A DNA stretch of 64,000 nucleotides from Chthoniobacter flavus (lineage in GTDB: Bacteria; Verrucomicrobiota; Verrucomicrobiia; Chthoniobacterales; Terrimicrobiaceae). This document shows positions 1-13,188 of the stretch, in pieces. The notes under the pieces were generated by a model. It ran no database searches and had not been told where the DNA came from. It saw only the letters and a list, made by a program, of their open reading frames with translations. The stretch lies in contig CAMCXK010000006.1 of the NCBI GenBank assembly GCA_945883435.1, forward strand, positions 1 through 64,000, written 5' to 3'. The position numbers were made by a program, and so were the translations under genes. Each line of letters begins with the position of its first letter. Position 1 is the first letter of the stretch.

Positions 1-1
1 C

Positions 2-112
2 ATGATTTTCGATTACATCGAGGGCTTTTACAACCGGTGGCGTTTACACTCGGCCCTCGGCTATAAATCCCCGCTGGACTTCGAATCCCCCCAGAACCAT
101 AAACCCGATTAA
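2..112 (+). pseudogene. IS3-family transposase OrfB, C-terminal fragment
   Basis: The reading frame open from the window edge gives the last 36 residues of an IS3-family OrfB integrase. It shows the hallmark end of the DDE domain ([20 protein letters not shown], then a KSPLDFE-like motif). This tail normally follows the catalytic glutamate. The upstream part lies outside the window, so I cannot tell whether the transposase is intact or a remnant. Its tail differs from the IS3-type remnant at 6900-7589, so the two are different elements. It marks the left edge of an accessory, A+T-richer segment. Confidence 0.85.
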
Positions 113-472
113 CAAAAAAGCCCCTCCACGCGTTTTCGAGGGAAGATCAGATGCCTGTCGACGCGTTGCCTCTTTGCTGGCGGTGAGTGAAGGTTCGCAA
201 GCAAGATCACTGGAGATCGTTGCATTAAGAATTGCCAGCCTTGTGGCGATTCAAAAGTCTCTGATCTCTTGATTTAAATCACCAAACTAACGGATTCGAC
301 GGCTTATTCGCCGGATTTACCGAATATTTGTGGATACATCGTCAGAATTTTAGCTATGTGTGAAATCGGAACTAGATTTCCAACGGACAAATCGATAAGC
401 ACAACGCCAACGACGCCGGACGAATTGTTTCCACCAACCAACCAACCAACCAACCAACCAACCATTCATTCC
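113..472. other. intergenic stretch with CCAA tract
   Basis: No convincing gene is seen between the transposase tail and the exported protein at 473. An ATG at 356 is in frame with that protein and would add 39 residues, including the peptide coded by the CCAA tract, but it would bury an obvious signal peptide. The right end of the upstream IS must lie in the first part of this stretch; I could not fix its terminal repeat without the left end. Confidence 0.5.
434..463 (+). repeat. (CCAA)n tetranucleotide tract, about 7.5 units
   Basis: Perfect CCAA repeats run for 30 bases and end about 10 bases before the ATG at 473. The frame from the upstream ATG at 356 passes through the tract as repeated Asn-Gln-Pro-Thr. 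A four-base unit is not a multiple of three. Slippage would therefore shift any frame that crosses the tract, or change promoter/leader spacing if translation starts at 473. Confidence 0.85.
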
Positions 473-973
473 ATGACCACCTATTCCCTGAAATGTCTCC
501 TCGCCGCCACTCTGCTCACGGCGGCAGGCGCTCTCTCCAACACAGCATTGGCCGAAGATTTGACCCTATACTCCAATGTTGTAAAACATGTCGACGGCCA
601 TAACGAAGCCAAAGATTTCGGCGTGGGGCATCGACGGATTCGCGAGAATGAACTCCGGTTCTCCGAGAATGGGAAGGTGGTTGGCAAAAGCTACTCAATT
701 ACTACCACCGTAAAGGTGAACAACAAGGCGGGCACTGGGACACGCGTTGCGCTTGGAGTGGTGCAACTACCCAAAGGCACTTTCTGGACTGAAACCACAG
801 TGTTTGATATGGCCCACAAGGCTGTGGTCGGGGCAGGTCACAAGCATAGCGGCATTATCCTCGGTGGAACCCGCGATTACGAAGGTGTGACTGGCACCTA
901 CGATCTTGAACTCAGCAAAGATGGAAAACATGCGGTCATCGTTTTCCACATCGTGCGGGGTAAGAAAAAATAA
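473..973 (+). CDS. exported protein, allene-oxide-cyclase/dirigent-barrel-like
   Basis: A 166-residue protein. The start at 473 is chosen because it gives a clean signal peptide: positive MTTYSLK, a hydrophobic core to about residue 20, then an ALA-type cleavage site before EDLTLYS. The mature part is beta-rich and carries GGTRDYEGVTGTYDL near the end. That motif resembles the closing strands of allene oxide cyclase/dirigent-type barrels, in which a GGTG-x-Y-x-G-x-x-G pattern is typical. No enzyme activity can be assigned. A strong hairpin follows the gene, and it appears to be a single-gene unit. An alternative start at 356 would read through the CCAA tract. Confidence 0.55.
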   Translation: MTTYSLKCLLAATLLTAAGALSNTALAEDLTLYSNVVKHVDGHNEAKDFGVGHRRIRENELRFSENGKVVGKSYSITTTVKVNNKAGTGTRVALGVVQLPKGTFWTETTVFDMAHKAVVGAGHKHSGIILGGTRDYEGVTGTYDLELSKDGKHAVIVFHIVRGKKK

Positions 974-1030
974 ACATCTTGGTGTTGTCCCGTTGAGTTT
1001 TCAACGGAGGCCTTAAGATTCGTCTTCTGG

Positions 1031-1057
1031 TTTCGGAGGGGAGACTCCCCTCCGAAA
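1031..1057 (+). terminator. 12-bp perfect hairpin after the exported protein
   Basis: TTTCGGAGGGGA and TCCCCTCCGAAA form a perfect 12-bp stem around a GAC loop, 58 bases after the stop at 973. Only a short TCTTT follows, so it is a hairpin with a weak U-tract. It probably separates the exported protein from the ligase-P450 gene. It could also be bidirectional, because the flanking A and T runs are symmetrical. Confidence 0.55.
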
Positions 1058-1165
1058 TCTTTACGAGGTTGGTTTTTTGGGACATTCATGTGAAACCGCG
1101 CTGGTGCTCCCATAAAAAAATACCCATCAATGTTTGAAAGTATATCCGGGTGACCTTTCCTCTTC

Positions 1166-4100
1166 GTGGATTCTTCCCATACTCATCCCCAATCCCTATC
1201 GCCCTTTGCTCTTTTTAGAGAGATTCTTCCTTCACATGTCTCACTGAAGCCAGATGCAACGGCTTATACTTTCCTTAAGGATGACAAGGAGGCGGTTTAC
1301 ATCTCCTATTTTGAACTCAATTTGGCCTCGTCCCGGATTGCCACAGAATTACTCAAGCGGGGAGGGGACGGTGGCAATGTGCTTTTGCTTTTTCCTCCGG
1401 GGATTGACTTCATAAAGGCATTTGTTGGCTGCGCGCTGGCTGGTTTTCCCTCCGTTCCGCTCAGTATCCCGAGGGCAAGGCAATCCCTCTCCGGGTTGGA
1501 AAAAATTGCGAATGATTGCGGTGCCAAAGTTGTCCTCTGCACCCAAGCCGTTTTCGGGATTCTCAGAAGCCGAATTCCTGAAGAATCTCCTCTCGCTCGC
1601 CTCGTTTGGATTAATGTCGATGAGCTTGATCATTCTGAACACGCGCTCTTCACGCCTCCTCCCGCCCAAGCTTCATCCCCTGTTTTTTTACAATACACAT
1701 CAGGTTCAACGGGTTCCCCCAAAGGCGTAGTGGTTGCCAATGAGAATCTCCTGCACAATCTTCAAAATATTGCTTCCCTCTACAACATGGCGGAAGGTTC
1801 CAAGGTCGTTTCTTGGCTCCCGCATTTCCACGATATGGGGCTGGTCGGGGCGATTCTGACCTCTCTCTACGCTGGGATCCCGTGCATTTTTTTTCCCCCG
1901 AACGATTTCATTCAGAAGCCCTATCGTTGGCTCAAAGCCATTAGTGATTATGGAGGAACATTGGGGGGAGCACCAAACTTCGCCTATGACCTCTGTGTCT
2001 CCAAAATCTCAGCCGCGGAAGTCGAGACCCTTGACCTGCGGAGCTGGAGACTCGCTTGGAACGGCGCGGAAACGATCCGCGCCTCGACACTCTCTGCTTT
2101 CGCTGAGCACTTCCGCAAAGCGGGCTTTTGGAAGAAGGCTTTTGCTCCCTGCTACGGATTGGCGGAAGCAACCTTGATGGTTACAGGCTGCGGCGCCAGC
2201 ACGGAAAATAAAATAATCAGCATCACGCGTTCCAGTCACCTCAGCGGCGAATCGGTCGACTTGGTGACAATCCCTTCCACCGAAACTCAGGAACTCGTCG
2301 GCTGCGGCAAAAGTTTTCCCGATCAAAGCGTGCGAATCGCTGATGCCACCTTGTCGCTTTCACTCCCAGATCTGCAAATCGGCGAGATCATGGTGAAGGG
2401 GCCCAGCATTTCCAAAGGGTATTGGAACAACACAGAGGCATCCGCTTTGGTATTTGACCATATCCTTGATGGCGAAGCGGGGTTTCTTCGCACGGGGGAT
2501 TTGGGATTTCTCTATGAAGGGGAGCTTTTTGTGGTTGGTAGGGTGAAGGAGACGATGAAGCTCAACGGAAAATCCTTCTACGCTTATGACATCGAATTTA
2601 CAGCCTGTGAGTCGAACCCTTGCCTGAAAAAGAATGGGGCCGCTGCTTTCTCCATACAAGGCGACGAGGGAGAGTCGCTTGTAGTGATCTGTGAAATTCG
2701 AAGGGATCGCCTGAAAGTTTTTGATGGAGAAAAAATCCGCAAGGCGATAGCGCAAGCGTTGATTGATGAACATAATGTGACTGTTCACGATATCGTTCTC
2801 ATCAAGCCAGCCATGCTGCCGATGACCTCCAGCGGCAAGATCAAGCGTCTCCAATGCCGCGAGCTCTATTTGCAAAACTCCCTCGAACCTCTTTATTCCT
2901 CACGCTCCTTACTTATGAATAAAAGCTCAAACCCTGCCGACTTGACTCATCAGTCCCTGGTGGATCTTCCCCCTCCTCTTCGCCAGAAAAGTCTTCTCGC
3001 CAAGCTCAAGGCTGTTACGGCTTCATTGGTCGGTTGCGATCCCCTCATGATCGATGCCTCGCAGAATCTGCACCAAGATATTGGTCTTGATTCAATCCGC
3101 TTGATCGAATTGAAAGTCCATCTTGATCTTTTGTTGGGCTACGATTTTCCCATTGAGAAAATGGCAGCAATAGAAACGCTGGGAGACCTTGCCAAGGAAT
3201 CGATCGAATATCTGAGCTTAGAGAATACGCCATCAAAGGTTTTATCGGAGATTTGCCCCGGACCATCCTACCCGCAGGATTTGGTTGTTCTGGAAAAGAT
3301 GCAAAATGGATTTTTCGATTACCTTCTGCAACTCCGCGAGCAATATGGCAGGTTCGTCCGATTTGTATGGGGTTCAAGGACTTTCTTCATGATCAGTGAA
3401 CCGGAAGATATCAGGGAAATTTTCGTCAAAAGGACGGAAGAGTTCATCCGAGGCGATTTCATTATCGGGATCAGGTTGACCTCGGATCATCAAAACCTCT
3501 TCTCCACTGAAGGCGCGGAGTGGAAGGTGCAGCGCGATCTGGCCCAACCGCTCTTCACCCGCGCCGCGCTGGAAGCCTTCTGTGATACGATCCCGGAGCG
3601 CGTCTTGGATTTCCTCTGCGATGAGGATGGGCGAAAAATTCCCAGAGAAGTAGATCTCACTGATGCCACCAAGGGAATTACGCTACGAATCATACTTGGC
3701 AAGTTGCTTGGCATAAATGATAAAAATAGAGTCAAATGTATTCTGGAAAGTCTGGCTGGTGTGGACAACTTTCAAGTCCCCTACTTCTACATATTTGCGC
3801 AAGAAAATTATAATGCGCCAGTTATTAACGAGAAGCTGCGTCTGCATTTTGATCCACTGATTTTTGAACATATCGATCAGCATCTCGACCATCCAGATCA
3901 ATACCAAGATATTCTCGCCTCCTACATAGCGACGGACTTCGTGAAGGCTATGCCAAGAGCAGAGCAGCGTATTTACCTGAGAAGTATGGTGTTCACTTAC
4001 ATCTTGGCGGGATTTGACTCAACAGGTAGCGGGCTTTTTTCGACTCTCTTCCTTCTGGCCAGCCATCCCGAAAAGCTCCGCAAAGTGAGGGAAGAGGTTT

Positions 4101-4573
4101 TGTCGGCTTTTCCAGACTCTCAATTGAAATCGCAAGACATTCTTTCAAAGCTTCCTTATACCTATGCTGCTGTGAACGAGGCGCTTCGTCTCTACCCTCC
4201 GGTGTGGTTCAATGGTCGGGAGGCAACCGTAGATACGACATTCCGCGGAATCCCGATTCAAAAAGGCGATTTCATGCTTGCCTCGGCCTACGTGATCCAA
4301 CGCAATCCCCTCTATTGGGAGAACCCCTCGGAGTTCCGTCCTGAGCGGTTTCTGGAAAAAAATGTCCCCATGGGTGCCTATGTTCCTTGGGGCTCTGGTC
4401 CAAGGCTTTGCGCCGGGAAATGGCTTGCGCTTTTCGAACTTATCCTTGCAACAGCCACGATCGTAAAGGACTATGATATCAATGTAACTTATGAAGGGGA
4501 ATTTGAACTCAACACATTCTTCACATTGAGACCCAAAAACACCTTCCAGGCCACGCTCACTCCGATTCCATAA
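1166..4573 (+). CDS. fatty acyl-AMP ligase / acyl carrier protein / cytochrome P450 fusion
   Basis: A 1135-residue three-domain protein with a GTG start; no ATG lies near the N-terminus. Residues 1-580 are a fatty acyl-AMP ligase: adenylation loop YTSGSTGSPKG near residue 175, YGLAEATL later, and a lysine in SSGKIKRLQ near the end. Residues 600-690 are a carrier domain with DIGLDSIRLIELK; Ser643 is the expected phosphopantetheine site. From about 700 there is a P450: I-helix LAGFDSTGSG, ExxR in NEALRLYPP, and haem loop PWGSGPRLCAG with Cys1082. The usual Phe at the start of the haem loop is Trp. Inferred role: activate a fatty acid, load it on the carrier, oxidise it in cis. The next gene starts on its stop codon (TAATG). 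Base composition is poorer in G+C than most of the window. Confidence 0.9.
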   Translation: MDSSHTHPQSLSPFALFREILPSHVSLKPDATAYTFLKDDKEAVYISYFELNLASSRIATELLKRGGDGGNVLLLFPPGIDFIKAFVGCALAGFPSVPLSIPRARQSLSGLEKIANDCGAKVVLCTQAVFGILRSRIPEESPLARLVWINVDELDHSEHALFTPPPAQASSPVFLQYTSGSTGSPKGVVVANENLLHNLQNIASLYNMAEGSKVVSWLPHFHDMGLVGAILTSLYAGIPCIFFPPNDFIQKPYRWLKAISDYGGTLGGAPNFAYDLCVSKISAAEVETLDLRSWRLAWNGAETIRASTLSAFAEHFRKAGFWKKAFAPCYGLAEATLMVTGCGASTENKIISITRSSHLSGESVDLVTIPSTETQELVGCGKSFPDQSVRIADATLSLSLPDLQIGEIMVKGPSISKGYWNNTEASALVFDHILDGEAGFLRTGDLGFLYEGELFVVGRVKETMKLNGKSFYAYDIEFTACESNPCLKKNGAAAFSIQGDEGESLVVICEIRRDRLKVFDGEKIRKAIAQALIDEHNVTVHDIVLIKPAMLPMTSSGKIKRLQCRELYLQNSLEPLYSSRSLLMNKSSNPADLTHQSLVDLPPPLRQKSLLAKLKAVTASLVGCDPLMIDASQNLHQDIGLDSIRLIELKVHLDLLLGYDFPIEKMAAIETLGDLAKESIEYLSLENTPSKVLSEICPGPSYPQDLVVLEKMQNGFFDYLLQLREQYGRFVRFVWGSRTFFMISEPEDIREIFVKRTEEFIRGDFIIGIRLTSDHQNLFSTEGAEWKVQRDLAQPLFTRAALEAFCDTIPERVLDFLCDEDGRKIPREVDLTDATKGITLRIILGKLLGINDKNRVKCILESLAGVDNFQVPYFYIFAQENYNAPVINEKLRLHFDPLIFEHIDQHLDHPDQYQDILASYIATDFVKAMPRAEQRIYLRSMVFTYILAGFDSTGSGLFSTLFLLASHPEKLRKVREEVLSAFPDSQLKSQDILSKLPYTYAAVNEALRLYPPVWFNGREATVDTTFRGIPIQKGDFMLASAYVIQRNPLYWENPSEFRPERFLEKNVPMGAYVPWGSGPRLCAGKWLALFELILATATIVKDYDINVTYEGEFELNTFFTLRPKNTFQATLTPIP

Positions 4574-5565
4574 TGCCCAGCGGGTTGCTCTCAGAAAATT
4601 CGGATGAAGCTCATCTGGGGAAACTAGGCCTCCTTCCAGACCGATTGATTTTTCTTCTCGGTCCCCACAGGTCGGGAACCACCTACCTGCATCAGGCGCT
4701 TGTGGATACGGGAGCTTTTGACTACATTTCTTATTACGATCTGGTCGAATTTGATCGATTGATCGTCAACCAAGAAACCGGCCGTCGGGAAGCTGTGATC
4801 CAATCGCTGAGGGAGGAAATGGAGAGCTTTGGACGCACTCGTGGCATCGACCATATGCCAATCAACCCCCTCCATGCGGAGGAGTATGGTTTCCTCCTCG
4901 AAAAGCGTTATCACAATATTCAACAAGCCTCCCACATTTCGAACACCAATTTCGAACCCCTCAAGACTCTCTGCCGCAAAAAGCGCTTCCTATCTCCCGA
5001 GCAGAAGCCCTTGATATTAAAAGACCCTATCGATTTCTACGATGGTTTTATCCGTATTGCAGAAAATTTCCCAACCGCCCAATTCATCTTTATCCACAGG
5101 CATCCCCTGACCGTCTTCAACTCGCATATTCAAATGTGGAGAAGTTTAATCAAAAGCAAAAACCCATGGTTGGCCAAAATCGATCACTCCTACGATGCGG
5201 TTTTCGATTCACCCCAACTGCTCCAAGCCATCCATCTGTCCACTCTCAGACCGCAAGGATTACAATTGGTTTTTGAGAAGCTCTACAATGCGTATAATTT
5301 TTATCTAAATCATATTCAGCACCTTGTCCCTGAGCAGGTCGTAAGCGTTCGCTATGAGGATCTCTGCAACACCCCCTCGGATGTTTTGCGTCTTATCATT
5401 CAGAAGCTGGATTTGCCCATCGCTGAGGAGTGCCTCGACGCCCGACCATCCCCCAGAAAAACGGCCATCCTACCTGAAGTGGAGCGCATCTATCGAGCCA
5501 ATGCCGAACGCATTGAACCCTACTTAAATCACCTCCACTATTCTCTTATGCCAGATGAGTCATAG
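4573..5565 (+). CDS. PAPS-dependent sulfotransferase family protein
   Basis: 330 residues. The N-terminal FLLGPHRSGTTYLHQAL is the 5'-phosphosulfate loop of the sulfotransferase family. RHPLTVFNSHIQMW fits the 3'-phosphate-binding region, and VVSVRYEDL matches the conserved segment before the C-terminal helices. It would move sulfate from PAPS to a hydroxyl or similar acceptor. Its start overlaps the stop of the ligase-P450 gene and its end overlaps the reductase start, so the three are translationally coupled. In context the acceptor is most simply a hydroxyl made by the P450 domain on the carrier-bound acyl chain; this is inference. No signal peptide is seen, so it should act in the cytoplasm. 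Confidence 0.85.
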   Translation: MPSGLLSENSDEAHLGKLGLLPDRLIFLLGPHRSGTTYLHQALVDTGAFDYISYYDLVEFDRLIVNQETGRREAVIQSLREEMESFGRTRGIDHMPINPLHAEEYGFLLEKRYHNIQQASHISNTNFEPLKTLCRKKRFLSPEQKPLILKDPIDFYDGFIRIAENFPTAQFIFIHRHPLTVFNSHIQMWRSLIKSKNPWLAKIDHSYDAVFDSPQLLQAIHLSTLRPQGLQLVFEKLYNAYNFYLNHIQHLVPEQVVSVRYEDLCNTPSDVLRLIIQKLDLPIAEECLDARPSPRKTAILPEVERIYRANAERIEPYLNHLHYSLMPDES

Positions 5566-6676
5566 CGAAAATGCTCCCTCTGATTCCTCCCCCGATATTG
5601 AAAACATTTTTTTGACCGGGGCGACTGGTTTCATAGGCGCGCATCTCCTCAAAAACATTCTGAACCATACGGACGCGAGAGTCTTTTGCCTGGTGCTTGG
5701 GGGTTCAATCCCCGCAGGCATCCAAAAAATCGCTGCGAACTTAGAGAGACACCATCTTTCCGTGGACTGGAGCAGGGTCAGCATCGTCTTGGGCGATCTC
5801 TCTCAACCTCTCTTTGGGATGAACCATGCTAAATATGATGCCCTTAAACAAGCAATCGATCTGATCATTCATGCCGGAGCTGGTGTCTCTCTATTTAGCG
5901 AATACGAAAAACTTAAAGCGGTGAATGTGGATGGCCTTGGAAGGGTGCTGGAATTAGCAAATGGGGAGCAGCGTATTCCCGTAACTCACCTCTCATCCTA
6001 CTCGGTCTTCAACGAGGCTTCGTATAGTGAAGTGCAGGAGGTCTTCGAGGAGCCTCTTCGCCGCACGGAGCCAATATTCCGGAGCGGATATGCAAAATCA
6101 AAGTGGATGGCTGAGTGTCTGTGCGAACAGGCGCATGCAGCTGGTGCCCCTGTCAAAATCCTCCGCCTGCCCTATATTTTGGGAGCAGCATCCACTGGGA
6201 TATGCAATCCGAATGGATATATAGAACTTATCTTGAAGGCTATGCTTCTCACCTCGTTGGCGCCGCAACTCGATTTTAGCCTGACTTGCCTGCCAGTCGA
6301 TATTTGCGCCGATCTCGTCGTCCGGATTTCTCTGCATTCCCAAGCTAACCCCTGCATCTTCCATCTCACGCCCTTCGCGCCGATTCCTTGGGCTGAAATC
6401 TGCGAAGCCGCAAGCAACTATGTCCACGATCTCGAGCATCTACCTCCCCTCGAATGGTATCATCATATCAAAAAATGTGCTTTGAACCACCGTGAGCTTT
6501 TTTCTGTTGTTGCTCTTCTGGCTCAAGACCCATCACTCATGCATTTCCGATCGAATATCTATCGACTCCGTTTTGATACCACTCACTTAACGCCCTATCT
6601 TGGCGAAGCCCCTGCTTTTCCTCAAGGTCGATCAACCTATCTGAGGCGTTACATGGAATCTGTCTCCAAGGTTTGA
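5555..6676 (+). CDS. thioester reductase-like extended SDR (NAD-binding 4)
   Basis: 373 residues. IFLTGATGFIGAHLLKNIL is the Rossmann dinucleotide loop, and YAKSKWMAE carries the Tyr-x-x-x-Lys catalytic pair, as in thioester reductase domains and fatty acyl-CoA reductases. The family releases carrier-bound acyl thioesters by NAD(P)H reduction to an aldehyde or alcohol. It overlaps the sulfotransferase by 11 bases. As the last gene of the cluster it is the natural off-loading enzyme for the ACP in the first gene. It is a free-standing protein, whereas many homologues are C-terminal domains of NRPS or PKS megaenzymes. The true substrate is unknown. Confidence 0.8.
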   Translation: MSHSENAPSDSSPDIENIFLTGATGFIGAHLLKNILNHTDARVFCLVLGGSIPAGIQKIAANLERHHLSVDWSRVSIVLGDLSQPLFGMNHAKYDALKQAIDLIIHAGAGVSLFSEYEKLKAVNVDGLGRVLELANGEQRIPVTHLSSYSVFNEASYSEVQEVFEEPLRRTEPIFRSGYAKSKWMAECLCEQAHAAGAPVKILRLPYILGAASTGICNPNGYIELILKAMLLTSLAPQLDFSLTCLPVDICADLVVRISLHSQANPCIFHLTPFAPIPWAEICEAASNYVHDLEHLPPLEWYHHIKKCALNHRELFSVVALLAQDPSLMHFRSNIYRLRFDTTHLTPYLGEAPAFPQGRSTYLRRYMESVSKV

Positions 6677-6689
6677 AATCTTGCTCACT

Positions 6690-6899
6690 TCAGTCGGCCT
6701 TGTAAATCGCGTCAACCAGACTGGTGCAGCGTTCACGCGGAAGGACTCCAGCTTCCCAATGGCTCATCAAATAAGCAAAGCCTGTTCCCCTTTCTGGATC
6801 GGCAAACCCTAGGCTGCCCCCCAAGCCGATATGGCCGAAAGCGGACAGCGAAGGCCCAAATAGAAAACGCATTTTTTGACCATTGTTATCAAGCGGATC
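6690..6899 (-). pseudogene. truncated beta-lactamase/serine hydrolase, C-terminal remnant
   Basis: About 65 codons in frame end at 6690. They include the AFGHIGLGGSLGFADPERG segment, which is typical of the C-terminal part of class C beta-lactamase-like serine hydrolases (EstB type), followed by a GFAYLM strand. The N-terminal part with the SxxK nucleophile is absent. The coding sequence is cut at the IS end beginning at 6900. It converges on the thioester reductase gene. Confidence 0.75.
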
Positions 6900-7589
6900 T
6901 GGAGTGCCCCCGAAATTTGATCCAATTGTTATGAGAGGATTTGTTCTTGTTTCGGGTTGGTTTCGCGGTCTTGCGGAGCGTAGGCCGTAGGCCGAAGCGT
7001 AGCAAGACAGTGTGCCGCAAACTCCCCCGGGGTCATCCCTTCCAGCGAGGAATGCGGTCTGTGGTTGTTGTATTTTTCGCGGTGTTCCGCGCTCAGGACC
7101 TTCGCCTCCACTTTGCTGGAAAAAAGTTCCACATTGAGGAACTCGTCCCTCAGCCTGGCGTTGAAGCTCTCCGTGTAGGAGTTTTGCCATGGCGCTCCGG
7201 GCTCGATGTAGAGCGTCTGAAACCCCTGTGATTGTATCCATTCCCTGACCTCCCGGGCGATGGATTCCGGGCCATTGTCGCTACGGATGAATTCCGGCGC
7301 TCCACGCTCCGCGACCAGCTTTTCGAGGGATGCCAACTACTTCCCGTGCCCCCATGGCGTGTTCCACCTCCAAGCCAAGGCACTCGCGCGTGTATTCGTC
7401 GAGAACCACCAGCCATTTCAATCGCCGACCTCCTTCGGTTTGGTCGAAAACAAAATCGTAGCTCCATACATGATTCCTGCGACCAGTTCCTAACCGCTGG
7501 GTCCCTTGATCCGTGCCCCCAAGTCGCCGCGGCTTGTGGGATTTGATTGGCAACCGCAATCCCTCTCTCTTACAAATCCGGTGCACCGG
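6900..7589 (-). mobile_element. 5'-truncated, frameshifted IS3-family element (OrfB)
   Basis: The minus strand codes for the middle and C-terminal parts of an IS3-family OrfB in two frames. The first (about 7589-7330) has HVWSYDFVFDQTEGGRRLKW and VVLDEYTREC with the first catalytic Asp. The second (7336-6929) has FIRSDNGPE, YTESFNARLRDEFLN with the catalytic Glu, and NNHRPHSSLEGM. A frameshift near 7330 breaks the gene, and OrfA and the N-terminus are missing. On the plus strand the element begins TGGAGTGCCCCCGAAATTTG at 6900, which looks like its terminal repeat. It is certainly dead. Confidence 0.85.
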
Positions 7590-7690
7590 TGGGGTATCAC
7601 CAAAGTTTGAGCCAGTTGTTATGAGAGTTTTGGTTGGTATTTCGGCTTGACGAGGCTGTTTTGCGGGGTAGTGCAACAATTCGTCTGTAA
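7590..7690 (-). mobile_element. 3' terminal remnant of a second related IS3 element
   Basis: This stretch resembles the last codons and right end of the neighbouring IS at 6900-6990. On the minus strand both share CTCATAACAA-TGG-TCAAA after a similar C-terminus (KPKYQPKLS here, NPKQEQILS there). Both begin, on the plus strand, with a TGG-G-T--C-CC end. Only the extreme 3' end is left. The truncated OrfB of the other copy abuts it at 7589/7590, as if one IS inserted next to, or recombined with, the end of another. Confidence 0.65.
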
Positions 7691-7815: not shown

Positions 7816-7865
7816 GCGGAAGGCAACCCGGTGAGTGGCGGCAAGATTTGCAATTTTCAGGGTCT

Positions 7866-7884
7866 GGCAGCTTTTGCGGCACCC
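7866..7884 (+). repeat. intergenic 19-bp motif, copy A
   Basis: GGCAGCTTTTGCGGCACCC lies 20 bases before the ATPase start. It matches copies B and C (11957, 13289) at 17 of 19 positions. Its function is unknown. Confidence 0.6.
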
Positions 7885-7903
7885 CTTGCTCCAAACTGCC
7901 GGC

Positions 7904-8914
7904 ATGAATCCACGACAACTTCAAAATTTCCTTTCGACTCTTGTTTCGCAAAACCTCCGCCAATCCGTGATGATTTGGGGAGCGCCGGGAATTGGAAAAT
8001 CCCAGACCGTTGCCGAGGTGGCCCGTGCGGCCAAAATCGAACTCGTCGACCTCCGTCTCAGTCAACTCGCGCCAACCGATCTCCGCGGTCTTCCCGTTGC
8101 AGACCACACAAACCGCACCGCCCGTTGGTATCCGCCGGAATTTCTTCCACGCGCGGGCCACGGAATTCTTTTTCTTGATGAACTGAACATGGCTCCGCCC
8201 GCCATGCAGGGCATCGCCCAGCAATTGGTCCTCGACCGTGAGGTCGGTTCTTACAAATTGCCCGACGGTTGGCATGTCTGGGCTGCCGGAAACCGCATCG
8301 AGGATGGCGCCTCCGTCTTTCAGATGCCCTCGGCGCTCCAAAATCGTTTCATCCACCTGACCGTCGAGCCGCATTTCGACAGTTTCCGTCATTGGGCACT
8401 CTCCCATGGGGTTCACGAGCGCATCGTCGCTTTTCTGGCGTTCCGTCCGCAACTTCTCCACAAACGGGACGCCATGCAAGCCGCCTGGCCCTCGCCGCGT
8501 GCGTGGGCCGTCGCGGGTGCCCTTTATCAAGCGGGACTGTCGGTTGAACCTGCCGTGGGCAAGGGCGCGGCGGGCGAGTTCTCCGCCTATGAACGCGTGT
8601 ATGCATCGCTCCCCGACTTGGATGCCATTCTCGCGGGCACGGGAAAATCCATTCCTTTTCCCGAATCGCCCGATGCCCGCTATGCCACTGTCATCGGGTT
8701 GGCAACCCGTTCCAAGGATCACAAATCCGTTAAAAGCGCGCTCGAATGGATCGTGGCCAAATCCGATCCCGAGTGGACTCAACTTTTCATTCATGCCAAG
8801 CTTGATACCGCAACCGCCGACAACTCCCTTGGCACTCTCGCCGCAACACTGGCTGCCAACCCGAAGGTGAAGAAATTTCTGGAGTCCTACCGCAAGCTGG
8901 TCCACGAACAATGA
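7904..8914 (+). CDS. MoxR-like AAA+ ATPase
   Basis: 336 residues from the ATG at 7904, giving the natural start MNPRQLQNFL. Walker A is WGAPGIGKSQT (residues 25-35), Walker B is GILFLDELNMA with Asp92-Glu93, and a sensor-like AAGNRIEDG follows. This is the pattern of MoxR/VWA-partner ATPases that remodel or activate target proteins. Its stop overlaps the start of the VWA gene (ATGA), so the pair is co-translated, as is usual for MoxR-VWA systems. The true partner substrates are unknown. It is the first gene of an apparent ATPase-VWA-repeat-protein unit preceded by copy A of the 19-bp motif. Confidence 0.85.
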   Translation: MNPRQLQNFLSTLVSQNLRQSVMIWGAPGIGKSQTVAEVARAAKIELVDLRLSQLAPTDLRGLPVADHTNRTARWYPPEFLPRAGHGILFLDELNMAPPAMQGIAQQLVLDREVGSYKLPDGWHVWAAGNRIEDGASVFQMPSALQNRFIHLTVEPHFDSFRHWALSHGVHERIVAFLAFRPQLLHKRDAMQAAWPSPRAWAVAGALYQAGLSVEPAVGKGAAGEFSAYERVYASLPDLDAILAGTGKSIPFPESPDARYATVIGLATRSKDHKSVKSALEWIVAKSDPEWTQLFIHAKLDTATADNSLGTLAATLAANPKVKKFLESYRKLVHEQ

Positions 8915-10041
8915 CATCCCGCACCTCCAGCAGGAGTGTCCATCCATTCGACCTTCCGCTCCTTGTTTTCCACTTGCGCAATGTCTCTCCCTTTTTCGGG
9001 GCACTCGCCCTTTTTGCGAAATCCATCGAGACCGAGTCCATTCCCACAGCCGCCACGGATGGACACAGCCTGCTTTTCAATCCTGGTTTCATGTCGACCC
9101 ACCCGCTGGACGAGCAACTCGGCATTCTTGTCCACGAACTCCTTCATGCCGCATTGCGCCACGTCGATCGCCGCGCCACAGCCGATCCGGATTTGTGGAA
9201 TCTCGCTGCCGACATCGTGGTGAACGGCATCATTGCGGAAACCTATGGTCTCAAGCTTCCGAAGTCCGCTCTGCGCGATGTGAAACTGGAAAAATTCCCC
9301 GTCGAAGAGGTCTACCAGATTCTCCTCAAACGTGATGGTCCCCCGAAACGACTTCAGTTCATCGGCGCGGATCTTCTCGCCTCTCCCAAGGGGGAAGTTG
9401 AACCGCCCGACACGGATTGGAACTCCGCCATGGCCCAGGCTGCCGTGGTGGCCCGCTTGGGTGCGAATGGAGTCGGAAACCTCCCTGCTGGCATCGAGCG
9501 TCTTATCATCGAGGCCACCGAACCACCGCTCGATTGGCGCACCCTCTTGTGGCGGCACCTCACCCGCACACCTGTCGACTTCACCTCGTTCGACCGCCGA
9601 TTTCTTGGCGAGGAACTCTACCTCGACGCCCTCGATGGCGAATCTGTTCGCGTCGCCGTCTGTGTTGACACGAGCGGATCGATCGGCGAGACGGAACTCG
9701 GGCGCTTCCTGAATGAAATTCGTGCCATTCTCGCCGCCTACCCGGTGATAACCGTTGACCTCCATACCTGTGAAACCGCCCTTAAGGGCCCTTGGAAACT
9801 GGATTCCCCCGATTGTCCGACTCCGAGGCTCCAAGGCGGCGGCGGCACCAGTTTTATCCCGTTCTTCAAGGCATTGGACACATCCAATCCCGTCCCCGAT
9901 GTCGCTGTCTACCTCACGGATGGCTTCGGTCCATTTCCAGATTCGCCGCCGCATTTTCCCGTTCTTTGGGTCGTCACTCCCGGCGGACTGCCTTCCGCGG
10001 AGTTTCCTTTTGGCGAAACCGCCCGAATGCTGGGCAGTTGA
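8911..10041 (+). CDS. DUF2201-type protein: putative metallopeptidase plus VWA-like domain
   Basis: 376 residues. The N-terminal half has LGILVHELLHAALRH with HExxH at residues 75-79, the zinc motif of the DUF2201 N-terminal domain. The C-terminal half is VWA-like with a MIDAS-type VCVDTSGSIG (Asp253, Ser255, Ser257), then GGGGTSFIPFF and AVYLTDGFG. Proteins of this form pair with MoxR ATPases. It overlaps the ATPase by four bases and is followed 10 bases later by a repeat protein. No signal peptide is visible, so a cytoplasmic role is likely. Whether the HExxH is proteolytically active is unknown. Confidence 0.85.
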   Translation: MTSRTSSRSVHPFDLPLLVFHLRNVSPFFGALALFAKSIETESIPTAATDGHSLLFNPGFMSTHPLDEQLGILVHELLHAALRHVDRRATADPDLWNLAADIVVNGIIAETYGLKLPKSALRDVKLEKFPVEEVYQILLKRDGPPKRLQFIGADLLASPKGEVEPPDTDWNSAMAQAAVVARLGANGVGNLPAGIERLIIEATEPPLDWRTLLWRHLTRTPVDFTSFDRRFLGEELYLDALDGESVRVAVCVDTSGSIGETELGRFLNEIRAILAAYPVITVDLHTCETALKGPWKLDSPDCPTPRLQGGGGTSFIPFFKALDTSNPVPDVAVYLTDGFGPFPDSPPHFPVLWVVTPGGLPSAEFPFGETARMLGS

Positions 10042-10051
10042 CTTTCCCCCC

Positions 10052-11899
10052 ATGAATACCGACTCCGAAAATCTTGCCCTCGCTAGCGATCCCTCCACAC
10101 CCGCTGAGACGCTGGCCGCTCTGGCAGAAGTTTCCGACGTGGCGGTTCGCCAGGCTCTCGCTGCGAACCCCAACACTCCCGAGGAGCTTCTCCACCTGCT
10201 TTGGGAAGACCATCCCGCGGGTTTGCTTGAGAATCCCATCCTCACGCTGTGGGAATTCAGTCGTGCGGGTTCAACACCTGATCTGATAGGTGACAGGCTG
10301 CTCCTCTGTCTTTTAAACCATTTGCGTTCCTCCGGGGCCGAACTTCCCGCGCACCTGTTCACCGCCGACTCCCTCTGCGGAATGGTCCGAAGCGCCCTGT
10401 CCCGTCAGGATCCCTCGATTTTCGCCTTCGTGCCTTTCGAAGAAAGGACTTCGTTGCGGATTTCTCTCTTGGATTCTCCCTCCCGTCGCATGCTCTTCGA
10501 ATTCTTCGAGGAGCATGCGCCCGATGCCGTCTGGATGCGTTTCGCCACCGACCCTTCTCCTGTGGTTCGGGAGGCTTTTGCCGATCTTCTCCGCTCCGCA
10601 CCCTCCGGAAACACGCCTCCCCGCCCGATTGTGGCCGAAGCCGCGCGCCTTCTTTTTCGAGACGGCCGCTCCGATCTTCTTGTCACACTCGCAAATTGCC
10701 GGATTCTTCCCGCGGATCTCATCGAACTTCTCGCCGACTCCCCTGTGGCCGAAGTGCGCGAACCCCTCACCCGCTGCATTTTTGCCGGGGTCTCCACTCT
10801 CAAGCGCCTCGCAGCGGATCCAGCTATTCCAGTGCGCCTGTCCCTCGCACGGAATTGCGAACTTGAGGAAATCCACCAAATTCTTGTCCGGGACCCAGCA
10901 CCCGATGTCCGCCGCCAGTTGGCGAAAAACAAATCCCTTTCCCGCAGGATTCTTGAATTGTTCGATTCCCACGACCTCCCCGAGGTCCTGCATGCCGTTT
11001 TTCTGGCCTGCCAAGCCGATTCCCGTCTGCGGGTCCGTCTTTTGCGCGAGGGCCGTGCGGAAATCCAGAGCGCGGTTCTCAAATTGGGCTCCGCCTACAC
11101 GCAGGCTTTCCATCGCGCGGTCGCATGCCTTCTCGCCGTCGAAACCCGCGCCTGCTTGGCGGAATGCCCCCGTCTGCCCCGCGCGATTGTCGAAGAACTT
11201 GCCCGCGACCCGGAATCCCGTGTGCGCCTCGGCGTGGCCCGCCGCCTTGGCAACTGTTTCAATCGGGGCTCCAGCCCGGCCAACCTCGCCTTGCTCAAGC
11301 TCCTCGCCGCGGATCCGCTGTCCAGTATCCGGTTGCAGGTTTGCAGCGACCCGCGCCTAGACAAGGAATCCACAGCCGCCCTCTTCAACGATCGAGACCC
11401 GGTCATTCAAAAAAAATGCGTTCAGTCGGTCCTTGGAGAATTCGAATCCCTTTTGACGACCCGCAAGCTCGAAACCTACGAGACCCTCTACAAGGAAAAA
11501 GCGGCGCTTCTCACGGCGATGGCCCACAACCCCGACCACCTTGTGCGTTTGGCCCTCGCCGAGGCTCGCGAGACTCCGCCCTCGGCGAAAGGCATCCTCA
11601 TGCACGACCCGGAGCCTTTTATTCGCGAGGCCTGCCTCAAGCAGTCCCACTGGCCCTATGGAGTCCTGATGGATCTTGAACATCGCCTTGGCGCAAATGC
11701 GGCAGCCCGCGCACTTCGCCATGGAGCCACCACGCCGTCATCCTCCGCCCTCCGCGCCCTTTCGGAATCCCACAATCCCTTTGAGCGCCTCCTGACCGCA
11801 CGCTGCCGCCGCACCCCGAAGGCCTCGCTTCAGCACCTCGCCCTGGATCCCCATCCGCCCATCCGCGAAGCCGCCATGGCACAACTTCAAAAAAAATAA
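10052..11899 (+). CDS. leucine-rich-variant (LRV/HEAT-like) repeat protein
   Basis: 615 residues built of about 25-residue helical repeats. The repeats follow the pattern of variant leucine-rich repeats: ALASDPSTPAETLAALA, AANPNTPEELLHLLW, and later LAADPAIPVRLSLARN and LVRDPAPDVRRQLAKN. Such solenoids bind proteins. There is no catalytic motif, signal peptide or membrane segment. The ATG at 10052 is chosen over longer in-frame extensions because those overlap the VWA gene. It follows that gene by 10 bases and is probably the third, substrate or adaptor, component of the MoxR-VWA unit. A shorter paralogue follows. The LENPI-T-WEFS segment near residue 65 recurs in the paralogue. Confidence 0.8.
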   Translation: MNTDSENLALASDPSTPAETLAALAEVSDVAVRQALAANPNTPEELLHLLWEDHPAGLLENPILTLWEFSRAGSTPDLIGDRLLLCLLNHLRSSGAELPAHLFTADSLCGMVRSALSRQDPSIFAFVPFEERTSLRISLLDSPSRRMLFEFFEEHAPDAVWMRFATDPSPVVREAFADLLRSAPSGNTPPRPIVAEAARLLFRDGRSDLLVTLANCRILPADLIELLADSPVAEVREPLTRCIFAGVSTLKRLAADPAIPVRLSLARNCELEEIHQILVRDPAPDVRRQLAKNKSLSRRILELFDSHDLPEVLHAVFLACQADSRLRVRLLREGRAEIQSAVLKLGSAYTQAFHRAVACLLAVETRACLAECPRLPRAIVEELARDPESRVRLGVARRLGNCFNRGSSPANLALLKLLAADPLSSIRLQVCSDPRLDKESTAALFNDRDPVIQKKCVQSVLGEFESLLTTRKLETYETLYKEKAALLTAMAHNPDHLVRLALAEARETPPSAKGILMHDPEPFIREACLKQSHWPYGVLMDLEHRLGANAAARALRHGATTPSSSALRALSESHNPFERLLTARCRRTPKASLQHLALDPHPPIREAAMAQLQKK

Positions 11900-11956
11900 C
11901 CACCCCTAAGCGGTGCCTTCCCAAAATGTCCGCCTCGCAGCAGGCCGGGACCCTGT

Positions 11957-11975
11957 GGCAGATTTTGCGACACCC
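11957..11975 (+). repeat. intergenic 19-bp motif, copy B
   Basis: GGCAGATTTTGCGACACCC, preceded by CCCTGT, lies 19 bases before the start of the second repeat protein. It is identical over 19 bases to copy C. Confidence 0.75.
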
Positions 11976-11994
11976 TTTTTGACAGACTCCCCCC

Positions 11995-13188
11995 ATGGTT
12001 CAATCGATCACACCCTCCGCTGTTGATGCCCACCCGACGCAAGTCTTGCCGGCAGGCGCGGATCGGCTTGCGCTCGCCGCCGATCCCGGGACACCTCCCG
12101 ACCAGCTTGTTGAAATTCAAAAACAATTTGCATCGGACCCCTCCATCCAAGCCACACTCGCCCGCAATCCGGCCACGCCACAAAAACTGCTTCTCCGCCT
12201 CTGGAGGAACGACCCCGCCGCCATTCTCGAAAACCCCATCGTCACTTTTTGGGAGTTTTCGAAACCCGGTTCGGCGAAGCAGCACATCTCCTTCGATATC
12301 CAGTTCGCTCTTTACCAGCACCTTCTCCTTCAACCCGATTTCGAACCGAGTCCCCACCTCGTCGACCCCAAGCACCTTGTCGCCTGTTTGGGCCGCCCCT
12401 CCCGCCATGCCCTTCAAATCCCGCTTCATCTGGTGCTGCGGGACAACCGGCCGAAAATCCGGTTTGAGCTCCTTGAGTATCAAGTCCCACACGCCAGCCG
12501 CAAGCTTGGGCGGCCTGTCGGATTTCCGCACGACGACCTCGTGGCGCTCGCTTCCAGCGGGGATCGCGGGATCCATGAAGCCCTCGCTGCCGCGATCGGC
12601 GGGGATTTTTTGCGCCCCGATCCACTGGACATCCCGTTTTTGGGCCGTCTCGCCAGACTTCTTCTGGAACAACGTGGCCAGAGTTTTTCCATTCCCAGGA
12701 ATATCGCCAAGTGGCCGTGTATCGATTCGGACATTGTTGAAAAGCTCGCCCGCCTCGCCGACGATCATTTTCTGTCCGTGCTTGCCGCGCACCCGCAGGC
12801 CTCACACGCCTTGCAGGAACGCCTTGCCACCCATCCTTCCGAGTCGGTCCGCGCGGGCCTCGCGGCCGCCACGCCCCTGGACCACTTGATTCAAAGGCTG
12901 TCTTTGGATCCGAACCCGATCGTGCGCGCCGCTCTCGCCTCCTCGCCCCATATCCAGACCGAAATTCAGCAACGCCTCTTTGAGAAAAAGGATCCGCGCA
13001 TCCTTCAATCGCTTCTCGAAAATCCGCACACCGCGCCTGAAATCCTTGCGGCTTGTTCCCGGCTCCGTTTCCTTTCCATCGAGCACCGCTTGCGCACACA
13101 TCCCAACACCCCTCCGGATGTCCTTGCGCGTCTCTCCCGCCAGGCCCTCCAGGTCGCTGCACCGATGCCCCCCGGAACGATTCGCTAA
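11995..13188 (+). CDS. LRV-type repeat protein, paralogue of the preceding gene
   Basis: 397 residues. After about 25 variable residues it runs RLALAADPGTPPDQLVEIQ and LARNPATPQKLLLRLW, then AILENPIVTFWEFSKPGS. The last segment corresponds to GLLENPILTLWEFSRAGS in the previous protein, so the two N-terminal halves come from one ancestor. More LRV repeats close the protein (LAAHPQASHALQERLATHP, ALASSPHIQTEIQQRL). The gap to the previous gene is 95 bases and contains copy B of the 19-bp motif. No catalytic motif or export signal is seen. It could be an alternative adaptor for the same ATPase. Confidence 0.8.
   Translation: MVQSITPSAVDAHPTQVLPAGADRLALAADPGTPPDQLVEIQKQFASDPSIQATLARNPATPQKLLLRLWRNDPAAILENPIVTFWEFSKPGSAKQHISFDIQFALYQHLLLQPDFEPSPHLVDPKHLVACLGRPSRHALQIPLHLVLRDNRPKIRFELLEYQVPHASRKLGRPVGFPHDDLVALASSGDRGIHEALAAAIGGDFLRPDPLDIPFLGRLARLLLEQRGQSFSIPRNIAKWPCIDSDIVEKLARLADDHFLSVLAAHPQASHALQERLATHPSESVRAGLAAATPLDHLIQRLSLDPNPIVRAALASSPHIQTEIQQRLFEKKDPRILQSLLENPHTAPEILAACSRLRFLSIEHRLRTHPNTPPDVLARLSRQALQVAAPMPPGTIR

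Follow-up and report, generated by a model that had tools for sequence, protein, structure and literature searches.

The first 64,000 nucleotides of a Chthoniobacter flavus contig (hereafter the window), which form the start of that contig in a 2.84-Mb MAG, carry a cassette of three overlapping genes for a fusion of fatty acyl-AMP ligase, carrier protein and cytochrome P450 (FAAL-ACP-P450), a PAPS-dependent sulfotransferase (ST) and a stand-alone thioester reductase (TR). That the three proteins serve one pathway is well supported because their linkage is conserved across three phyla. The best explanation of the set, held with middling confidence, is oxidation and sulfation of a carrier-bound fatty acyl chain, which a reductive step then sets free as a sulfated aldehyde or alcohol. 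The enzyme families are known; their combination and the FAAL-ACP-P450 fusion appear to be new.

Gene and domain organization of the cassette

The open reading frames in the window overlapped by 1 nt (fusion/ST) and 11 nt (ST/TR), which bore out the two overlapping, translationally coupled genes described in the sequence-only reading. The fusion protein consists of a FAAL (residues 11-577), an ACP (613-677, with Ser643) and a P450 (709-1118, with Cys1082), and its Pfam matches were AMP-binding (25-420; 7.8e-58), a DIP2-like C-domain (461-574), PP-binding (613-677; 2.1e-8) and P450 (709-1118; 5.3e-62). Across six full-length homologues, which came from three phyla, Ser643 and Cys1082 did not vary, nor did the ExxR motif (E1005/R1008) and the I-helix threonine T953 of the P450; next to the carrier serine the cyanobacterial homologue has GS and not DS. 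The ligase-carrier-P450 fusion recognized earlier, including its carrier serine and heme cysteine, was thus confirmed both by Pfam and by the invariant residues. The solved sequences listed for the ligase at E<=1e-60 were of the FAAL type (FadD23, FadD32, Legionella FAAL and a PKS-loading FAAL), and the alignment spanned the whole ligase, including the FAAL-type insertion region 340-395, with gaps of only 1-3 residues. The nearest solved relatives of the P450 domain were a bacterial P450 (7wzl) and CYP3A/CYP102-like enzymes.

The second protein matched Sulfotransfer_3 (Pfam, 5.9e-19), and its PAPS motifs HRSGTT (5'-PSB loop) and R176-x7-S184 (3'-PB) were invariant in seven homologues. The third matched NAD_binding_4 (Pfam, 4.9e-51) and passed the cut-off of the thioester-reductase family TIGR01746 (NCBIfam, 235.9 vs 213.35 bits), its Rossmann motif TGxxGF and residues Ser147/Tyr179/Lys183 being invariant in homologues from three phyla; its best solved relative was the reductase domain of MxaA, aligned over nearly the full length (E 9.7e-74). 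The earlier assignment of a PAPS sulfotransferase and a reductase of the kind that frees acyl chains from a carrier therefore stands. No redox partner, exporter or PPTase was present within the cassette.

Table 1. Positions and properties of the cassette genes and flanking features in the window.
Feature	Position	Strand	Remarks
FAAL-ACP-P450 fusion gene	1166-4573	+	1135 aa; GTG start; frame uninterrupted; all domains intact
PAPS-dependent sulfotransferase (ST) gene	4573-5565	+	330 aa; frame uninterrupted
Stand-alone thioester reductase (TR) gene	5555-6676	+	373 aa; frame uninterrupted; NAD(P)-dependent, SDR type
End of second integrase/transposase reading frame	1-113	+	Read from sequence, at contig start
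Asparagine-synthase-type gene, C-terminal remnant	150-269	+	77.5% over 40 aa; full length upstream in L009
Small secreted protein gene	473-973	+	~165 aa; signal-peptide-like N-terminus; upstream in four Chthoniobacterales loci
Strong hairpin, 14 pairs	1029-1059	+	Between secreted-protein and fusion genes; -24.9 kcal/mol, z -3.2
Beta-lactamase-fold serine hydrolase (PF00144), 3' remnant	6690-6911	-	Complete in L009 and L010, where it is convergent
IS3-type transposase gene (rve)	6929-7600	-	Pfam; interrupts downstream flank

The P450 of the cassette was the only one found in genomes G000, G093, G122 and G128, both partial P450 matches in G509 were pieces of its fusion protein, and none was found in the 13 congeners lacking the cassette. 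The host bacteria have almost no other P450s, and the enzyme would therefore have to draw its electrons from general ferredoxins. APS kinase, and with it a supply of PAPS, was available in G000 and in the majority of carriers. Non-carriers had the kinase too; its co-occurrence is therefore uninformative and its presence only permissive. The sole ACPS-family match in G000 was short and partial.

Occurrence, exchange and genomic context

The search covered 197 genomes of the order and a scan of public genome contigs with short peptide patterns taken from the window protein, while the profile searches covered about 1,200 genomes, mostly of Verrucomicrobiota and Cyanobacteria; the true range of the cassette is probably wider than found. 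The linkage on which the sequence-only reading depended was recovered in three phyla. Within the window's order, five more genomes contained the cassette, one of them as a deletion remnant, and the fusion, ST and TR genes were all recognized in the congener G125 (L003/L009), G128 (L004/L010), G093 (L005/L088) and G122 (L006/L089), the L089 copy being cut by the contig end. Outside the order the set was found on one Eremiobacterota contig (L011) and one cyanobacterial MAG contig (L012), corresponding to 1 of 18 genomes of the Eremiobacterota class and 1 of 200 genomes of the cyanobacterial order. At both loci the ST-TR pair lies on the strand opposite to the fusion gene, convergent in L011 and divergent in L012, and still adjoins it; the ST/TR overlap is kept in all three phyla, even where the pair and the fusion gene are read in opposite directions. 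Two more cyanobacterial ST matches (L102 and L103) had no adjoining cassette. A separate P450 gene, not fused, stands immediately upstream of a FAAL gene in a different family of the order (L007, 257-3180).

The contig CALPNT020000125.1 (L012) is titled Bifidobacterium breve, but because the bin encodes photosystem II proteins the title is wrong and the genome is a cyanobacterial bin. The contig itself may still be foreign to this MAG, although the bin has those photosystem II genes and the tetranucleotide make-up of the contig was close to that of 1 of 4 other bin contigs compared. Several carrier genomes are MAGs with short contigs, in which single contigs may be contaminants, most so L012.

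Among 79 FAAL loci from public genomes, all four with a fused P450 had ST and TR alongside, whereas the remaining 75 included no related ST, five with TR and one with a weak P450 match. The probability of such a split for ST is 1 in 1.5 million if the loci are independent, a figure to be taken as a guide only because two of the four fused loci belong to one order.

The cassette is horizontally acquired or moving; it is AT-rich (GC 49.5% against a background of 60%; in the verrucomicrobial relatives 48-52% against 54-63% in the surroundings), patchy in distribution and flanked by IS-type genes. An IS3-type gene is also located near the L012 cassette (1461-2486). A plasmid or viral origin was rejected, no relatives of ST having been found in the plasmid collection or in viral contigs. 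The cassette is under purifying selection, with dN/dS among the four best loci of 0.11-0.36 for ST and TR and, in those fusion comparisons that allowed an estimate of dS, of 0.14-0.18.

Comparison of L088 (2363-8581) with the window (473-6676) revealed that the fusion-ST core had been replaced by an allele resembling that of L089, which belongs to another family, with the flanks unchanged. The identity between the window and L088 was about 83-90% in the secreted-protein gene, fell to about 54-72% roughly between 1200 and 5400 and returned to 83-92% through TR; overall, the divergent block was about 64% identical to the window and the flanks about 88%. Within 1301-5200, two-versus-two site patterns grouped the window with L009 at 145 sites and with L088 at 59, whereas outside this interval the numbers were 32 and 106, respectively. 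In turn, L088 and L089 were 90% identical in the P450 and 84% in ST, but only 53% in TR. Since identity and site patterns switch together, with breakpoints near 1000-1300 and 5200-5400 of the window, the fusion and ST were replaced as one block and TR was not. Joint exchange of the P450 and ST is as expected if ST must match the P450 product. The cassette also decays, as follows from L090 (6941-8177, G106), where an internal deletion has joined the N-terminal part of FAAL to the C-terminal part of TR. This remnant adjoins the same neighbors as L089, which by eye are fabD-like and tatA-like.

The cassette is rare: 3 of 16 genomes in the genus carry it, and among 384 sampled members of the class only the window's own genome does. 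Such patchiness would be compatible with a chance neighborhood of three ordinary enzymes lacking a common pathway. This explanation is, however, highly improbable: it is already contradicted by the linkage conserved in three phyla despite rearranged orientation, and purifying selection and the exchange as a block speak against it as well.

The small secreted protein is 68-84% identical across four loci (dN/dS 0.19-0.33) and matched no Pfam or NCBIfam family and no credible PDB profile, and its AlphaFold model was unusable (pLDDT 36). A resemblance to the allene oxide cyclase/dirigent barrel was supported by no tool and was dropped. The protein is possibly an accessory part. The hairpin downstream of its gene is terminator-like and may act as a terminator or attenuator; a similar inverted repeat occupies the same place in L009, L010 and L088, and a terminator scan made no call there. 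The serine-hydrolase gene, convergent and downstream of the cassette in Chthoniobacterales-type loci, was truncated in the window by the downstream transposase gene. Further downstream (7835-13188), genes for a MoxR-type ATPase, a DUF2201 VWA/metallopeptidase and leucine-rich-repeat-variant proteins stand in a row, with nothing to connect them to the cassette.

In several relatives the cassette is bordered by an asparagine-synthase-type gene and by the genes for the secreted protein and the serine hydrolase. It might therefore supply no more than the lipid moiety of a larger molecule, its aldehyde or sulfated chain being an intermediate for conjugation by other gene products to an amine, a sugar or a protein. 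Such a role is improbable, as none of these three genes was matched at the loci from Eremiobacterota and the cyanobacterial MAG and the asparagine-synthase-type gene (asnB) is decayed in both the window and L088. By their absence from the same two loci, the secreted protein and the hydrolase are non-core.

Proposed order of reactions

We infer that the chain would be oxidized on the carrier by hydroxylation and sulfated before its release by one or two reductions. The FAAL would adenylate a free fatty acid and load it onto the fused ACP through the phosphopantetheine on Ser643, the C-terminal P450 would hydroxylate the chain held in cis on this carrier, supplied with electrons by a housekeeping ferredoxin system, and ST would sulfate the new hydroxyl using PAPS. 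TR would then cleave the thioester with NAD(P)H to yield a sulfated fatty aldehyde, which a second reduction may convert to the corresponding sulfated alcohol, an alkyl sulfate of amphiphilic character. The same sequence of hydroxylation, sulfation and release as aldehyde or alcohol had been put forward from the DNA alone and is plausible. The location of FAAL-ACP on one polypeptide with the P450 argues for an acyl substrate rather than menaquinone.

The likely acceptor of ST is ambiguous. The two best solved matches in the profile search were the CurM ST (5.4e-11) and an olefin-synthase (OLS) ST (4.8e-8), with the likeness mostly confined to one C-terminal stretch of 50 residues, whereas a fold search with a medium-confidence AlphaFold model of ST (pLDDT 78) favored the mycobacterial Stf9/Stf1 and tyrosylprotein sulfotransferases, CurM ranking below Stf9/Stf1 with a TM of 0.41. 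In view of this ambiguity, retention of the sulfate was ranked first and its use as a leaving group second.

As a leaving group, the sulfate would be placed by ST on a beta-hydroxy (or other) acyl-ACP made by the P450 and lost on release, which would give an unsaturated product such as a 2-alkenal, an allylic alcohol or an alkene, the final lipid being sulfate-free. The CurM and olefin-synthase STs, the best solved profile matches, act on carrier-bound beta-hydroxyacyl chains (PMC3903477), and on chemical grounds a beta-sulfated aldehyde would readily eliminate. This outcome is a serious rival, though the less likely one: no KS-AT-KR extension module or thioesterase was detected in the cassette (Pfam) or among its conserved neighbors, the releasing enzyme is a reductase, and the likeness to CurM and OLS is mainly that of the short C-terminal stretch and did not come top in the fold search. 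The alkene-type fate named as a second option in the sequence-only reading hence gained some support from the profile matches, while neither the PKS extension module of such a route nor its thioesterase was present.

Alternatively, TR might act before ST and reduce the chain to a primary alcohol, with ST sulfating that hydroxyl (or an omega-hydroxyl) off the carrier to alkyl sulfates or diol monosulfates and the P450 modifying another site. Consistent with this order, ST is a separate, unfused protein, and MxaA, the closest solved relative of TR by sequence, is a terminal reductase that makes primary alcohols. We consider it unlikely, since the block exchanged in L088 contained the P450 and ST and not TR, in keeping with an ST whose substrate is the product of the P450 and not that of TR.

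The chances are about even that the cassette stands for a hitherto undescribed class of bacterial sulfated lipids (hydroxy-fatty alcohols or aldehydes), or of unsaturated lipids formed by a sulfation-driven reaction, made by a minimal carrier-bound route free of PKS and NRPS modules, with cis oxidation by a fused FAAL-ACP-P450 and an oxidation/sulfation core exchanged between lineages as a block. If so, a compact route encoded in 5.5 kb would lead from free fatty acids to functionalized sulfated lipids, and the covalent link between a P450 and the carrier presenting its substrate would offer a ready-made tool for oxidizing fatty acids. The small size of the cassette would allow a test of the whole set in E. 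coli.

Comparison with known systems

No description of a combined FAAL, sulfotransferase, P450 and thioester reductase was found in the literature searched, in agreement with the earlier statement that no described cluster has just this set; subscription journals were mostly outside the coverage, and an earlier description elsewhere is possible. A cyanobacterial cluster combines a P450 and a sulfotransferase with a halogenase and has no carrier protein nearby (PMC8406957), and the main text of a 2025 review of FAALs makes no mention of P450s. Didomain FAAL-ACP loading proteins are represented by HapA of hapalosin, NocH of nocuolin and AmbG of ambruticin biosynthesis (PMC11837247), which resemble the cassette protein in having a FAAL fused to its own ACP and differ in that no fused P450 has been described for them.

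A precedent for a P450 followed by a sulfotransferase acting on a lipid is the mycobacterial sulfomenaquinone pathway, in which hydroxylation by CYP128A1 precedes sulfation by Stf3 and the two genes are adjacent (PMC7404182); in contrast to the cassette, its substrate is a free quinone, and FAAL, carrier and reductase are lacking. The olefin synthases share with the cassette the loading of a fatty acid by FAAL and ACP with a subsequent sulfotransferase, and the OLS and CurM domains are the nearest solved STs by sequence; however, their beta-hydroxyl is formed by KS-AT-KR and release is achieved by a thioesterase, while the cassette has the P450 as its sole oxidizing enzyme and release by a reductase. 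The reductase of MxaA, closest to TR among solved structures, ends a PKS/NRPS assembly line, whereas TR is a stand-alone protein in what would be a single-carrier lipid pathway. Finally, P450s such as BioI oxidize acyl chains tethered to a carrier protein, and in the cassette this carrier is covalently fused to the P450.
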